Assembly: GCF_018861145.1 (NCBI RefSeq)
Contig: NZ_JAHKQT010000017.1
Span: 280,557-344,556 of the forward strand
DNA from: Poseidonibacter lekithochrous
Lineage (GTDB): Bacteria; Campylobacterota; Campylobacteria; Campylobacterales; Arcobacteraceae
DNA length: 64,000 nucleotides
Reading direction: 5' to 3'
Position numbers and translations under genes: made by a program. Of this stretch, positions 2,747-9,288 are shown piece by piece. Positions within the stretch are counted from its first letter, which is position 1. The number at the start of each line of letters is the position of its first letter. The notes below the pieces were generated by a model. That model saw only the letters and a list, made by a program, of their open reading frames with translations. It was not told the origin of the DNA and made no database searches.

Positions 2747-3507
2747 ATACTTTTAAATCATATGCAAAAGTTAATATTTTTCTGAAAATTGCAGATAAAA
2801 GGGAAGGATATCATGAACTCATATCACGGTTTGTACGAGTTCATAATCTTTTTGATTGTATGTCATTTGTAAAAACTAATAAGAAGGCATTTGATATTAT
2901 AGGTAATTTTGGATGTAAATTAGAATCAAATACTGTATATAAAGCATACAATTTATTAAAAAACTATAATGGGGTTGAAGAATTTTTCAATATTTATAGT
3001 GTTAAAGTTGAAAAAAATATACCAGAATTTGCGGGATTAGGTGGTGGAAGCTCGAATGCTGCTACTTTTTTGATTATGGTAAACAAATATTGTGAGTTAA
3101 ATTTATCAAAAGATGATCTTTGTAAAATTGCTGTGCAAGTTGGAGCGGATGTACCTTTCTTTATTTATGAATATGATAGTGCTAATGTTACTGGAATTGG
3201 TGAAATTGTAGAAAAATTTGATGAAGATATTTTAGATATAGAAACAATTACTCCGAATATACAATGTGATACAGGTGAAATATTTAGAATTTTTAGAGAA
3301 AAATTTTATAAACAAATTCAAAAAGATGAAGCAAAACGACTCTTATCTATGAACTCTTTAGATATTCTAAATGAGTTTAATATATATGACGCAAACGATT
3401 TATATGAACCCGCAATTACTTCAAAGCCAGAATTAAAAGCTTTTGCAAAGAAAAACTGGTATTTTAGTGGTAGTGGAAGTTCATTTTTTAAGGTAAATAA
3501 TGGCTAA
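2743..3507 (+). CDS. ispE: 4-diphosphocytidyl-2-C-methyl-D-erythritol kinase IspE
   Basis: GHMP-family kinase that phosphorylates the 2-hydroxyl of CDP-methylerythritol in the MEP isoprenoid pathway; ispH of the same pathway lies at 31359-32195. The N-terminal [12 protein letters not shown] and the ATP-binding [15 protein letters not shown] (around residues 97-111) are diagnostic, and the C-terminal [10 protein letters not shown] is the third GHMP motif. 254 aa is within the family range. It overlaps truB by 4 nt and smpB by 8 nt, which indicates one transcript. Confidence 0.95.
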
Positions 3508-3976
3508 GAAAAAAGAAGAAAAAAAGAATTTAGTATTTAAAAATAAAAAAGCTTTTCATGATTTTACAATTATGGAATCAATGGAAGCTGGTATTGTTCT
3601 TGAAGGTAGTGAAGTAAAAGCTTTAAGAGAAGGTAGAGCAAACCTAAAAGATTCATTTGTTCGTATTGTAAAAGGTGAGGTGTTCTTATTTAATATGCAT
3701 ATTTCTCATTTAAGTACAGCTCATACTACTTATCGACCTGATGAAAGAAGAGAGAGAAAACTTCTTTTACATAGTAAACAGATTGAAAAGTTATTTGTAA
3801 AAGTTACTAAAGATGGTATTTCTATTGTTCCTTTGAAAATGTATTTCAATGATAGAAATAAAGTAAAAGTACAAATAGCAACAGCTGAAGGTAAAAAACT
3901 TCATGATAAAAGAGAAGATTTAAAGAAAAAAACTATGCAAAGAGAGACTCAAATAGCTATTAAAAATTGGAAATAA
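3500..3976 (+). CDS. smpB: SsrA (tmRNA)-binding protein SmpB
   Basis: Binds tmRNA and delivers it to stalled ribosomes for trans-translation. The fold signature is complete: [29 protein letters not shown], then [10 protein letters not shown], and a basic C-terminal tail beginning [13 protein letters not shown] that enters the mRNA channel. 158 aa is normal. It overlaps ispE by 8 nt and ends the helicase-truB-ispE-smpB unit. An AT-rich hairpin about 37 nt downstream may end transcription. The tmRNA gene ssrA is not in the window. Confidence 0.96.
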
Positions 3977-4440
3977 TTATATTATATTATTACTCTACTT
4001 TAATAGCTTCTACAAGACAAAAAATAATTATTTTTTGCCTTGAATGAAATTCAAAATAAAATAAAATAAACATAGAAATATAAATTATATAAAAAAAATA
4101 GAAATTATTAACTATTTTAAATTATTTTAATTTTGATAATTAGTATGATTATACTATAGCCTGAGTATAGCTAAATAGGACAAAAAGTATCTCTTTTAAG
4201 AAAATAACTCATTTGATACATTATAAGTCTAGATTATAATTATCAGAATAATAAGAAATGATAGGATAAAAACAAAATTTATAATTATAATCATTATTTT
4301 ACTTAGCCTGATTATTATTTTTTATTAAATTTAATTCTTAAATTGTACTAAAATTAAGTAAAAATTTAGAGCACTTTAGTTAATATCAATCCATAAGTGA
4401 CGTATTGTGACTTGTATATAAAATTAGTAGGAGGAGATTG
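3977..4440. other. 464-bp gene-free region between smpB and ccoN
   Basis: Very AT-rich, with no ORF of note and no tRNA- or tmRNA-like GC stems. It holds an inverted repeat at 4013-4042, a small one at 4040-4054 (TTGAA/TTCAA) and another around 4153-4176 (CTATA/TATAG). The cbb3 promoter must lie here, but no convincing -10/-35 pair at sensible distance from ccoN could be chosen. The last 15 nt carry a strong ribosome binding site (TAGGAGGAG) for ccoN. Confidence 0.6.
4013..4042. terminator. AT-rich palindrome downstream of smpB, possible terminator
   Basis: Outer arms CAAG/CTTG enclose, after one mismatch, a perfect 20-bp palindrome at 4018-4037 (CAAAAAATAA and its complement). It lies 37 nt after smpB and has internal T and A runs on both strands. 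It could be a weak intrinsic terminator or a protein-binding palindrome. Confidence 0.45.
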
Positions 4441-5907
4441 ATGCAAAACGGTGCACAAATTGAGTACGATTACTCAGTTGCAAAAGCCTTTACATTTGCA
4501 ACAATTTTGTTTGGTATCATAGGTATGACAATTGGTGTTGTACTTGCGTTTCAATTGGCGTTTCCTGAGTTAAATAACTTAGCTGGGGAGTATGGTACAT
4601 TTAGTAGATTAAGACCTTTACACACTAATGGTGTTGCATTTGGTTTTACTTTAAGTGGTGTTTTTGCTGGATGGTATTACATTGGGCAAAGAGTATTAAA
4701 AGTTTCTTTAAAAGAATCTCCATTTTTAATGGGTGTTGCAAAATTACATTTTGCACTTTATTTTATCACTATTCTTTTAGCCGTAGTAACTCTATTTATG
4801 GGTTATACTACATCTAAAGAGTATGCTGAATTAGAATGGCCATTAGATATCTTAGTTGTTGTATGGTGGGTTTTATGGGGAGTATCAATCTTTGGACTAA
4901 TTGGAATTAGAAGAGAAAGAACTCTATATATTTCATTATGGTACTTCATTGCTACTTTTATTGCAATTGCAATGTTATATTTATTTAATAACATGGAAGT
5001 TCCAACTGCATTAGTATCAGGATATGGTTCATGGATGCATTCTGTTTCTATGTATGCAGGTACAAATGATGCGTTAGTACAATGGTGGTATGGACACAAT
5101 GCTGTTGCATTCGTTTTCACAACTCCAATTATTGCATTAATTTATTATTTCCTACCAAAAGAATCTGGTCAAAATGTTTATTCATATAAACTTTCGATCT
5201 TAGCTTTCTGGGGATTAATGTTTGTTTATTTATGGGCTGGTGGTCACCACCTTCTTTATTCAACTGTTCCTGACTGGATGCAAACTATGGGTTCTGTAAT
5301 GTCAGTTGTATTAATCTTACCATCATGGGGATCTGCTATTAATATGCTTTTAACTATGAAAGGTGAATGGCAACAGTTACAAACTAATACACTAATTAAG
5401 TTTATGGTATTAGCATCAACATTCTATATGTTATCAACTATTGAAGGTCCTATTCAAGCGATCAAATCAGTAAATGCAATTGCGCACTTTACAGATTGGA
5501 TTCCAGGTCACGTTCATGATGGTGTTTTAGGATGGGTTGTATTTATGATTATGGCTTCATTATTCCATATGGTTCCAAGAATGTATAAAAGAGAACTTTA
5601 TTCTAAATCATTAATGGATACACAATTCTGGTTACAAACTACAGGTATCGTTTTATACTTTACTTCTATGTGGATTGCAGGTATTACTCAAGGTATGATG
5701 TGGAGAGCATATGATGAATATGGTTCTTTAGTTTATTCATTCATTGATACAGTAACTGTATTACAACCATATTATACAATTAGAGCAGTTGGTGGGTTAT
5801 TGTACCTTATTGGATTCTTTATGTTTGCATTTAATATTTATAAAACTATTAAATGTGGAAGAGTACTTGATAAAGAACCAACAAACGCTACGCCTGTAGC
5901 TGCGTAA
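4441..5907 (+). CDS. ccoN: Cytochrome c oxidase cbb3-type, subunit I CcoN
   Basis: Catalytic heme-copper subunit of the high-affinity cbb3 terminal oxidase in the inner membrane; reduces O2 to water and pumps protons. 488 aa with about 12 hydrophobic segments. Heme and CuB histidines are in conserved contexts: RPLHTNG, WWYGHNAV, AGGHHLLY and GHVHDGVLGW. A TTG at 4438 directly precedes the ATG at 4441; the ATG is preferred because TAGGAGGAG lies 6-7 nt upstream. It is followed after 14 nt by ccoO. First gene of the operon after a 464-bp gene-free region. Confidence 0.98.
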   Translation: MQNGAQIEYDYSVAKAFTFATILFGIIGMTIGVVLAFQLAFPELNNLAGEYGTFSRLRPLHTNGVAFGFTLSGVFAGWYYIGQRVLKVSLKESPFLMGVAKLHFALYFITILLAVVTLFMGYTTSKEYAELEWPLDILVVVWWVLWGVSIFGLIGIRRERTLYISLWYFIATFIAIAMLYLFNNMEVPTALVSGYGSWMHSVSMYAGTNDALVQWWYGHNAVAFVFTTPIIALIYYFLPKESGQNVYSYKLSILAFWGLMFVYLWAGGHHLLYSTVPDWMQTMGSVMSVVLILPSWGSAINMLLTMKGEWQQLQTNTLIKFMVLASTFYMLSTIEGPIQAIKSVNAIAHFTDWIPGHVHDGVLGWVVFMIMASLFHMVPRMYKRELYSKSLMDTQFWLQTTGIVLYFTSMWIAGITQGMMWRAYDEYGSLVYSFIDTVTVLQPYYTIRAVGGLLYLIGFFMFAFNIYKTIKCGRVLDKEPTNATPVAA

Positions 5908-5921
5908 GAAAAGGAGAAAAT

Positions 5922-6605
5922 ATGTTTCATTGGTTTGAACAAAGACCGTTTTTCTTTGCGGTACTAGTATTCGTGTTTGTTGCATTTGCAGGTATTATTG
6001 AAATTATTCCAGATTTTGCAAAACAAAGTAGACCTACTGTTGGTACTAAACCTTATTCAGTTTTAGAACTAGCTGGTAGACAAGTTTATATTAAAGATTC
6101 GTGTAATGCTTGTCATTCACAATTAATTAGACCATTTAAATCAGAAACTGATAGATATGGTATGTATTCATTATCTGGTGAGTATGCTTATGATAGACCA
6201 TTCTTATGGGGATCAAAAAGAACTGGACCAGATTTAATGAGAGTTGGTAATTATAGAACTACTGACTGGCATGAAAATCACATGATGGATCCAGCATCTG
6301 TTGTACCTGGAACTGTTATGCCAGCATATCCTCATCAATTTGAGAATATTGTTGATTTAGATACAGCATATGCTGAAGCTTATACAGTTAAAACTGTTTT
6401 TGCTACTCCATATGATCAAGATTTAGATGGTGATGGTAAAATTGACGTTGAGCTAGGTGAGCATGCAACTGCGATTGCAAAAGCAAAAGCTGATGCACAA
6501 CTTATTGCAGCTGATATGAAAAACAAAGCTGTAAAAGATGCTGTTGCAAATGGTCAGATTCCTGAAATAGTTGCATTAATTGCATATTTAAATTCTTTAA
6601 AATAA
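5922..6605 (+). CDS. ccoO: Cytochrome c oxidase cbb3-type, monoheme subunit CcoO
   Basis: Membrane-anchored monoheme cytochrome c that passes electrons to CcoN. One N-terminal membrane anchor (about residues 9-30), heme c motif CNACH at residues 61-65, then QLIRPF and the RTGPDLMRVG and PGTVMPAYP blocks typical of CcoO, which provide the distal Met. 227 aa. A good ribosome binding site (AAGGAG) precedes the ATG. Sits 14 nt after ccoN and 11 nt before ccoQ. Confidence 0.97.
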   Translation: MFHWFEQRPFFFAVLVFVFVAFAGIIEIIPDFAKQSRPTVGTKPYSVLELAGRQVYIKDSCNACHSQLIRPFKSETDRYGMYSLSGEYAYDRPFLWGSKRTGPDLMRVGNYRTTDWHENHMMDPASVVPGTVMPAYPHQFENIVDLDTAYAEAYTVKTVFATPYDQDLDGDGKIDVELGEHATAIAKAKADAQLIAADMKNKAVKDAVANGQIPEIVALIAYLNSLK

Positions 6606-6616
6606 GAGGTTAATAA

Positions 6617-6835
6617 ATGGATTATGAAACATTATTGAACATACAAGGTTATGCAAAGTTCTTTTTAATTTTATTTGTATTTGTTGTATTTTATTCTTAT
6701 GCTTATTCAATATATAAAAGGGATAAAACTGGTGAAACAGATTTTGAGAAGTATTCGAACCTTGTTCATGATGATTCATCATCCTCTTCTCCTCTTGAAG
6801 AAAGAACAAATGATATAGATAACAAGGAGAAATAG
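6617..6835 (+). CDS. ccoQ: cbb3-type oxidase small subunit CcoQ
   Basis: 72-residue protein with one transmembrane helix (about residues 12-31) followed by a charged cytoplasmic tail containing YSIYKRDKTGETDFEKY, a typical CcoQ tail, and ending in a Ser/Glu-rich stretch. CcoQ stabilises the cbb3 complex rather than taking part in catalysis. Position between ccoO and ccoP, 1 nt from the latter, supports the call more than sequence does, because the family is poorly conserved. Confidence 0.85.
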   Translation: MDYETLLNIQGYAKFFLILFVFVVFYSYAYSIYKRDKTGETDFEKYSNLVHDDSSSSSPLEERTNDIDNKEK

Positions 6836-6836
6836 T

Positions 6837-7724
6837 ATGAAATCTATGGTTATAGGTGGAATTATTCTTGTCATCGCATTAATAGCAGGAACTTACTTTG
6901 CGGCAGGTGATGCTTTTATCGGTGACGATTATATTAATAGTTTAACAATGTTAGGTGCTATTGCGATTATTGTAATTACAGTATTCACAACACTTAAATA
7001 TGTTAACCAAATGAAAAATGATACGGCTAGTGGTGAATTAAAAGATGAAAATTGGGACGGAATTGGGGAATACCAAAATAATGTTCCAACAGGTTGGGCT
7101 ATTGCATTTATTGGAACAATTATTTGGATGTTCTGGTATATGACTATTGGTTATCCAATTAACAGCTTTTCACAAATTGGTCAATGGAATGAAGAAGCAT
7201 TAGATTACAATGCTAAGTTTGAAAAGAAATGGGAAAACCCTTCTACTGAAACTTTAGAAGCAATGGGTCAATCTACATTCTTAGTTCAGTGTTCACCTTG
7301 TCATGGTGTTGATGCTGAAGGTATTGAAGGTAAGGCACAAGATTTAACTAAAAGAATGGCAAAAGAACAAGTTATTCACATTATTAATAATGGTTCTAAT
7401 AGTTTAAAAACTGCATATCCTGGGGGAATGCCAGCTGGCATGGCTTTTGGACCCGATGTTGAAATAATTGCTGATTATGTTGCTGGTGGATTTAAAGGTG
7501 AACAACCTGCTGCTTACGCTACTTGTGCAGGATGTCACGGTGCAGATGGAAAAGGTATGCCTTATGTTGCTCCAAATATTAGAGAATATGATGATGCACT
7601 TGTAATTGCTGTGTTAAAAGATGGGAAAAAATCAAATATTGGTACAATGCCAAGTTTTGATGGAAGACTAAATGAAACACAACAAAAAGCTCTTGCTGCA
7701 TACTTAAGAAGTTTAGGAGAGTAA
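6837..7724 (+). CDS. ccoP: Cytochrome c oxidase cbb3-type, diheme subunit CcoP
   Basis: Diheme cytochrome c subunit that accepts electrons from the bc1 complex or soluble cytochromes. 295 aa: two N-terminal hydrophobic segments, a third (GWAIAFIGTIIWMFWYMTIGYP) leading into the periplasmic part, then heme motifs CSPCH at 152-156 and CAGCH at 230-234. The downstream methionines GGMPAGM and GTMPSF are probable axial ligands. The N-terminal extra helices are usual for Campylobacterota CcoP. It ends 1 nt before the DUF4006 gene. Confidence 0.97.
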   Translation: MKSMVIGGIILVIALIAGTYFAAGDAFIGDDYINSLTMLGAIAIIVITVFTTLKYVNQMKNDTASGELKDENWDGIGEYQNNVPTGWAIAFIGTIIWMFWYMTIGYPINSFSQIGQWNEEALDYNAKFEKKWENPSTETLEAMGQSTFLVQCSPCHGVDAEGIEGKAQDLTKRMAKEQVIHIINNGSNSLKTAYPGGMPAGMAFGPDVEIIADYVAGGFKGEQPAAYATCAGCHGADGKGMPYVAPNIREYDDALVIAVLKDGKKSNIGTMPSFDGRLNETQQKALAAYLRSLGE

Positions 7725-7725
7725 G

Positions 7726-7989
7726 ATGGCTGGAAATACACAAATGAACGAAAACGAAAGAGGAATCTTTAAGTTAAGTGGTATTACTGGTATGTTAATA
7801 GCAACTGTGTTATTATTAACAATATTAGTTGTATTAACTATTAGTGGTATTAAAGTACAACAAGATCAATCAACTAATTTTTATAAAATTAACCAAGATA
7901 TTAATGGTTTAACTTCAGGAAGTGTTTTCTCTGATAGAAAACAAAATACTCCAGAAGAACAAAATAAAAATTATATTAATGCTAAATAA
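7726..7989 (+). CDS. DUF4006 family membrane protein
   Basis: 87 aa with one strong transmembrane helix (around residues 21-44) after a polar N-terminus containing NENERGIFKLSGITGM, and a polar C-terminal part likely in the periplasm. The family occurs directly after ccoP in Campylobacterota; its function is not known to me. The start is 1 nt after the ccoP stop, so it is almost certainly cotranscribed and coupled. A role as an accessory subunit or assembly factor of the oxidase is an inference from position only. Confidence 0.85.
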   Translation: MAGNTQMNENERGIFKLSGITGMLIATVLLLTILVVLTISGIKVQQDQSTNFYKINQDINGLTSGSVFSDRKQNTPEEQNKNYINAK

Positions 7990-8000
7990 AAGGAGCTAAG

Positions 8001-8093
8001 ATGGAAAGAATTATAGGATTATTACTAGTAGTATCTGCAGTTATGACTTTATATTTTAGCTTTTTTAACGACGCAAAAATATTTATAGGTTAA
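8001..8093 (+). CDS. 30-residue single-span membrane protein in the cbb3 operon
   Basis: A very short ORF, MERIIGLLLVVSAVMTLYFS then FFNDAKIFIG, with a strong ribosome binding site (AAGGAG, 5 nt before the ATG). It starts 11 nt after the DUF4006 stop and ends 1 nt before the next ATG, so it fills its gap exactly. Nearly the whole chain is one hydrophobic helix with a short polar tail. Size and setting recall small oxidase subunits such as CydX or CcoM, but no homology is claimed. Confidence 0.7.
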   Translation: MERIIGLLLVVSAVMTLYFSFFNDAKIFIG

Positions 8094-8094
8094 A

Positions 8095-8730
8095 ATGAAG
8101 ACTATTAAAAATTTAAAAATGGGAGTGATTTTTTCACTCCTATTTTTTTTATCACAAAATATATTAGCAGATGAGTTTATCTTAAGTGATGATGGATTAA
8201 TTGATCCACGAGCGCAAGAAAAAATTACTCAAATAGGGTTAGAATCTAAAGAAAAATTAGGTGTAAATATTTACCTTTATGTGAAATCTACTTATGGCCT
8301 AGGTGATAAGATCAAAGGTAAAGATAAGATTATCTATCTAAAAAATCATGAATCAAAAGTATTGGAAAATTTAAAAAAACCATATGCATTAATGACTATG
8401 GCTATTGATGAGCAACATGTAAATCTGATAGTTAGTAAGAGTTTAGAAAAGATTATTGATAAAGATGATATTTTAGATGGATATGTAGTTCCTTTATTAG
8501 CATCAAAAGATAAAAATACCTTATTTGCTAAAGTAAGTGCTGCTACATTAAATGGATATGCTGCAATTGCAGATATAATTGCAGATGAAAAAAATATTAA
8601 ATTAGAAACAAGTATTGGAAGTCAAGGTAAAATAGCTAGTACAATTTGGAGAGTAATGATGTATACTCTTGTTGTAATTGGGATACTTGCTTATACTTTT
8701 GTAGTTTTAAGAGAAAAGAGAAGAAAATAG
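8095..8730 (+). CDS. TPM-domain-like periplasmic membrane-anchored protein
   Basis: 211 aa. An N-terminal signal peptide (to about residue 25, ending LADE) is followed by a domain beginning DDGLIDPRAQEKITQI that resembles the start of TPM domains (found in Psb32 and Rv0431-type proteins), including a GVNIYLYV strand. One C-terminal transmembrane helix (about 186-205) ends in basic residues RREKRRK-like. The topology is a periplasmic domain tethered by its C-terminus. It starts 1 nt after the 30-residue ORF and abuts the FixH-like gene. A function in cbb3 assembly or copper handling is plausible only from context. Confidence 0.65.
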   Translation: MKTIKNLKMGVIFSLLFFLSQNILADEFILSDDGLIDPRAQEKITQIGLESKEKLGVNIYLYVKSTYGLGDKIKGKDKIIYLKNHESKVLENLKKPYALMTMAIDEQHVNLIVSKSLEKIIDKDDILDGYVVPLLASKDKNTLFAKVSAATLNGYAAIADIIADEKNIKLETSIGSQGKIASTIWRVMMYTLVVIGILAYTFVVLREKRRK

Positions 8731-9288
8731 ATGAAAAGAAATTATTGGCCTTTATTATTTATTGCTATATTCTCATTTACATTAGGAATGATTATTTGGA
8801 CTGTTATGAGTGCCATTAAATTACCTGTTAATGAAGATGAAAGTTTTTTAAGAAGCTATCAAGATGTTGATGCTAATTATAATACAATTATGACTTCGAA
8901 TCAAATATTTTTAAAGAAATATAATTTTAACCTTAATGTTAATGAAAAGATATTTGGTTTAACAACTGAAGATATTAAATACTCTCAAAGAGTTTTAGAA
9001 AAAAAATCTGAACATAAAAACATATTAAAATATGGTTTAAATAATATCTCTTTAATAGTAAGTGATAAGAAAACAAATGAAAAAAAGAGTGTTAAAATTG
9101 CATTAAAAGTTACGAAGAGTATTTCAAATAAATTTGATATTCTTTTAAGTAATAAAAATTTCAAAAATAATGAAAATGAATATACTGCTAATTTTGAGAT
9201 ATCAGATAAAAACAATTGGAATATTACTGGGACATTCGAAGTAGATGGAGTAATTGGGTCTATTTTTATAAAGACAAATGCAATTTAA
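8731..9288 (+). CDS. FixH/CcoH-like cbb3 oxidase accessory protein
   Basis: 185 aa with one N-terminal transmembrane segment (WPLLFIAIFSFTLGMIIWTV) followed by PVNEDESFLRSYQDVDANYN, which fits the FixH pattern of a single span plus an Ig-like periplasmic domain. FixH/CcoH is needed for assembly or stability of cbb3 oxidase in other proteobacteria. It starts directly after the TPM-like stop. Its last 11 nt overlap addB. The family is weakly conserved, so the call rests on topology, the DESF motif and position. Confidence 0.7.
   Translation: MKRNYWPLLFIAIFSFTLGMIIWTVMSAIKLPVNEDESFLRSYQDVDANYNTIMTSNQIFLKKYNFNLNVNEKIFGLTTEDIKYSQRVLEKKSEHKNILKYGLNNISLIVSDKKTNEKKSVKIALKVTKSISNKFDILLSNKNFKNNENEYTANFEISDKNNWNITGTFEVDGVIGSIFIKTNAI

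Follow-up and report, generated by a model that had tools for sequence, protein, structure and literature searches.

The 30-codon ORF at positions 8001–8093 of the window, the 64,000-nucleotide stretch of Poseidonibacter lekithochrous DNA that was analysed, is on the basis of sequence comparison almost certainly ccoY, the orthologue of Campylobacter jejuni Cj1485. As a whole, the data were best explained, with good confidence, by a ccoY orthologue whose product is an accessory protein with a single helix in the inner membrane, serving the cbb3 cytochrome c oxidase of Campylobacterota. In microaerophiles such as Campylobacter and Helicobacter, this oxidase is a main enzyme for consuming oxygen with high affinity. 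CcoY itself has been known since 2021 from one species, C. jejuni, and in the literature searched the name was found together with cytochrome c oxidase in a single report (Garg et al., 2021, PMC8267372). The present analysis adds that CcoY accompanies the oxidase almost universally across the order, that its tail comes in lineage types, that in duplicated operons it is linked to CcoX and not to CcoZ, and that neither Pfam nor NCBIfam has a model for it; the outcome is an annotation fix together with a ready profile for CcoY. As parts or helpers of the oxidase, CcoX and CcoY are both known from Campylobacterota only.

The oxidase genes and the ORF under study were located in the window as follows.

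4441–5907, plus strand: ccoN, catalytic subunit, ATG at 4441 (Pfam COX1, 6e-107; matches to cbb3 CcoN in the PDB)
5922–6605, plus strand: ccoO (Pfam FixO, 5e-82)
6617–6835, plus strand: ccoQ, 72 aa (Pfam FixQ, 4.9e-8)
6837–7724, plus strand: ccoP (Pfam FixP_N and Cytochrome_CBB3; 46% identity to C. jejuni CcoP)
7726–7989, plus strand: ccoX, DUF4006 single-span protein, 87 aa (Pfam PF13179, 1.8e-24)
7990–7995, plus strand: Shine-Dalgarno sequence of ccoY, AAGGAG, read from the sequence directly 3′ of the ccoX TAA stop
8001–8093, plus strand: ccoY, 30-aa single-span membrane protein, in the same position as C. jejuni cj1485c
8095–8730, plus strand: ccoZ, TPM-like, 211 aa (blastp E 7e-22 to C. 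jejuni CcoZ)
8731–9288, plus strand: ccoH homologue, 185 aa (blastp E 1.7e-10 to C. jejuni CcoH/Cj1483)

The ccoY ORF runs from ATG to TAA over 30 codons and encodes MERIIGLLLVVSAVMTLYFSFFNDAKIFIG. Its AAGGAG is separated from the ATG by 5 nt, the stop of the DUF4006 gene lies 11 nt before the ATG, and 1 nt separates the ccoY stop from the start of the TPM-like gene. The first-pass annotation, which had placed a 30-residue ORF with a strong ribosome binding site in the gap between these two genes, was thus accurate in its coordinates and description, in the well-placed AAGGAG, and in the statement that the ORF fills the gap. Among the neighbours, window CcoX and C. jejuni CcoX shared 49% identity across 68 aa, and the nearest named relative of the window protein was from Poseidonibacter ostreae (98% identity). 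Window CcoZ and CcoH gave no Pfam or NCBIfam match over the cut-off, though both could be aligned to their C. jejuni counterparts; C. jejuni CcoZ is itself a weak TPM_phosphatase match.

In C. jejuni, ccoNOQP was described as being followed by ccoX (cj1486c, DUF4006), ccoY (cj1485c), ccoZ (cj1484c), and ccoH (cj1483c), with a 33-residue CcoY having one central transmembrane helix, named in 2021, and a 200-residue TPM protein as CcoZ (PMC8267372). The gene order in the window was the same, ccoN-O-Q-P-X-Y-Z-H. The cj1485c gene was located through the published NCTC 11168 primers, and locus L184, which carries all nine of the primers checked as exact matches, encodes at this position the 33-residue MSKALEYLIVIGLVAAAAITAWSVLTVNHLHIG, in agreement with the published length, alongside a 200-residue CcoZ. 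A profile made from Arcobacteraceae sequences only found the L184 CcoY with a local E of 1.6e-8, and CcoP, CcoX, CcoZ, and CcoH were all alignable between the window and L184. Compared pairwise by blastp, the window peptide and C. jejuni CcoY gave no match, and the link of orthology therefore rests on the profile, the intermediates, and the position. Taken together, the gene order, the profile match at the primer-located cj1485c, and the alignable neighbours identify the window ORF as ccoY.

For both proteins, the gene is flanked by ccoX (DUF4006) and ccoZ (TPM) within the ccoNOQP-ccoH locus; also shared are one central helix in about 30 residues, a C-terminus ending in [IV]G, and profile homology via intermediates. 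They differ in length (30 residues in the window, 33 in C. jejuni) and in their tails, FFNDAKIFIG versus SVLTVNHLHIG, with one more residue and a Lys/Arg in the tail of the window protein. The earlier proposal of a candidate new cbb3 subunit or assembly peptide accordingly stood insofar as it described a real and conserved small protein with one membrane span, linked to the cbb3 operon, and fell in its novelty, since the C. jejuni orthologue had been named in 2021 (PMC8267372).

To establish protein-level conservation, the same gap was read in Arcobacteraceae, as the first-pass annotation had proposed along with a check of synonymous-site bias. DUF4006 was present in 98 of 104 genomes of the family, giving 101 distinct loci, all of which were read. 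An ORF of 30–31 codons lay directly 3′ of DUF4006 in 101/101 loci (98 genomes), including one that runs into the contig end after codon 28 and two, with starts overlapping the DUF4006 stop, that were read by eye; the gap between the DUF4006 stop and the ATG was mostly 9–11 nt. A lack of such an ORF in relatives, or frameshifts and stops among homologs, had been named as grounds for abandoning the gene; with the ORF found at every locus, the gene stands. Among 92 distinct 30-codon nucleotide sequences the median dN/dS was 0.34, dN was below dS in 99.7% of the pairs at moderate divergence, and column entropy peaked at codon position 3 and was smallest at position 2. Stops interrupted the two alternative forward frames in 90/92 and 83/92 sequences, and a Shine-Dalgarno-like core was present within 18 nt upstream of the ORF in 100/100 family ORFs. 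When the window ORF was subjected to simulated random substitution to the same distances, start, open frame, and stop survived together in 3% of the trials. The window ORF is under protein-level selection.

Instead of a protein gene, the stretch separating ccoX from ccoZ could be imagined to be a leader, an RNA element, or a translational coupler, given the 1-nt distance of the ccoY stop from the ccoZ start and a predicted pairing at 7989–8070, in which the ccoY ribosome site pairs with ccoY codons ~18–23 (z −2.15). The same pairing is likely in close relatives (P(paired) 0.8–0.97); it does not extend across the whole family (median z −0.73). This alternative was judged highly implausible, because the amino acid conservation, the dN/dS, the codon-position pattern, and sequence conservation over an order all speak against it, as does the retention of ccoY where ccoZ is missing, and it was rejected on the coding statistics and the absence of family-wide RNA structure.

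The reach of ccoY beyond Arcobacteraceae was assessed by score and by position. Profile A1, built from 29 Arcobacteraceae CcoY sequences, matched 283 of 397 genomes of the phylum (E ≤ 0.05 per genome). In a position test independent of the score, DUF4006 loci from 49 representative genomes over other families and genera were inspected, and 45 of the 49 carried a 29–41 codon one-helix ORF directly 3′ of DUF4006; among them are Helicobacteraceae, which score poorly with the profile owing to their divergent sequences. The remaining four had a different gene directly after DUF4006. In one of these (G456), ccoY was found elsewhere, at a contig end just 5′ of ccoZ-ccoH; in two relatives of another (G241, G294), ccoG (FixG_C) lies between ccoX and ccoY, with ccoZ-ccoH following; and in the last two (G157, G115), matches to the CcoY profile were present in the genome. 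The inserted ccoG occupies 3504–4958 in locus L188 and 3512–4957 in L189, just 5′ of ccoY-ccoZ-ccoH. In G128, a Campylobacteraceae genome that the profile did not match, the ORF was in place right after DUF4006, and the four genomes checked on all three proteins (G052, G107, G109, G130) were without CcoY, DUF4006, and FixO together. Hence, ccoY is near-universal beside cbb3 oxidase genes and absent in the tested genomes without the oxidase.

Duplicated operons further separated the partners of ccoY. In the second oxidase copies of three genomes (G026, G030, G092; loci L013, L026, L034), ccoP-ccoX-ccoY are kept and ccoZ-ccoH are absent behind them; it is thus the oxidase and CcoX that CcoY accompanies, rather than the TPM gene. 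The assignment of the peptide to the TPM gene was for this reason rejected. In two of these copies (L026, L034), tblastn found no ccoQ, and ccoO and ccoP lie ~20 nt apart.

The description of the product as one hydrophobic helix was supported by an AlphaFold2 single-sequence prediction, which gave window CcoY a single continuous helix over residues 2–29 (mean pLDDT 96), and the best 18-mer hydropathy of CcoY averaged 2.26 in the family. Outside Arcobacteraceae, CcoY carries 1–2 Lys/Arg per protein on the N side and 0–0.03 on the C side; under the positive-inside rule, this distribution favours an N-in orientation with a periplasmic C-terminal tail. In Arcobacteraceae these charges are balanced on both sides and give no topology decision. 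The tail itself falls into lineage types, namely TPNHL[FY][IV]G in most families (e.g., TPNHLFVG), FFDS[TA][RK]VFVG in Arcobacteraceae (e.g., FFDSTRVFVG; FFNDAKIFIG in the window), and a PN.FL...-type in Helicobacteraceae (PNLFLHLV-like). Most likely, the window helix would lie in the inner membrane with its short N-terminus cytoplasmic and the tail FFNDAKIFIG at the periplasmic face.

As to function, deletion phenotypes have been described for C. jejuni: loss of ccoX or ccoH abolished oxidase activity, and loss of ccoY or ccoZ reduced without abolishing it, with no rescue by copper, unlike the defects of ccoI or ccoS (PMC8267372). In the available part of that report, genetic complementation is not described for the ccoY mutant; polar effects were said to be minimised by the cassette, yet ccoZ and ccoH lie downstream of ccoY. 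The requirement of the C. jejuni counterpart for full activity agrees with the oxidase function proposed in the first-pass annotation (PMC8267372), and window CcoY very probably supports oxidase activity in this organism. Alongside CcoX, it would pack onto the oxidase, and thus placed could stabilise the cbb3 complex or help its maturation, leading to full activity.

Regarding the form of this support, we lean toward a stable subunit over a transient assembly factor. The latter, acting for example by inserting heme or copper into CcoN or by joining CcoNO to CcoQP and being absent from the finished enzyme, seems rather unlikely: although ccoY sits among the assembly-linked genes ccoX, ccoZ, ccoH, and in some genomes ccoG, its defect was not relieved by copper as those of ccoI or ccoS were, its deletion merely lowered activity (PMC8267372), and Arcobacteraceae CcoY has no conserved Cys, His, or internal Met that might form a metal-ligand motif. 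The absence of CcoY from the nine oxidase and Qcr proteins detected by mass spectrometry in C. jejuni complexes (PMC8267372) would fit an assembly factor as well, although so small a hydrophobic protein is easily overlooked.

A role in docking the oxidase to the Qcr (bc) complex, with CcoY and CcoZ as supercomplex factors, was considered improbable. CcoZ was detected with Qcr and oxidase proteins in C. jejuni (PMC8267372), and ccoZ adjoins ccoY in 91 of 97 family loci, as such a role would have it; the second oxidase copies of G026, G030, and G092 nevertheless have ccoY without ccoZ. The C. jejuni ccoY defect was apparent in the ascorbate/TMPD assay (PMC8267372). In this assay electrons are donated below Qcr, which likewise argues against docking.

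Within the subunit reading, a stronger version is offered tentatively and is itself doubtful: the cbb3 oxidase would have a phylum-specific form that always includes CcoX and CcoY, CcoY would be one of its obligatory structural subunits, and the lineage tail types would be matched to a partner surface. From the near-universal presence of CcoY comes the prediction that its helix will be present in, or required by, every Campylobacterota oxidase whose structure is solved. Among PDB sequences, no solved structure had a relative of CcoX or CcoY detectable by sequence, and a PDB search with CcoX and CcoZ found no relative of either.

Finally, CcoY was compared with other small oxidase proteins and with family models. 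Against Pfam and NCBIfam, no family scored over its curated cut-off for the window ORF, and other members gave weak, scattered matches. CcoM of Pseudomonas stutzeri (36 aa, PMC10433244) is, like CcoY, a small single-span protein of a cbb3 oxidase and was described as required for stability (PMC8267372); CcoY is tied to CcoX in Campylobacterota, whereas CcoM was described from Pseudomonas. The CcoY profile found no CcoM-like chain among all PDB chains at E ≤ 10, the query being this profile and not the CcoM sequence itself. CioY of the C. jejuni CioAB bd-type oxidase (34 aa, PMC11955535) and CydX of E. coli are likewise single-span helices encoded beside a terminal oxidase. These two bind the large subunit of an oxidase that differs in type from cbb3, and CioY has conserved Trp, Pro, and Tyr, a pattern that differs from that of CcoY. 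In CcoY, the NCBIfam CydX model had no match and CydP touched 1 of 29 members (E 0.0066), and ccoY is encoded among cbb3 genes, not after cydAB or cioAB. CcoQ (FixQ) resembles CcoY in being a small one-helix cbb3 protein of the same gene run, but in the window it is a separate gene at 6617–6835 and is not replaced by CcoY.
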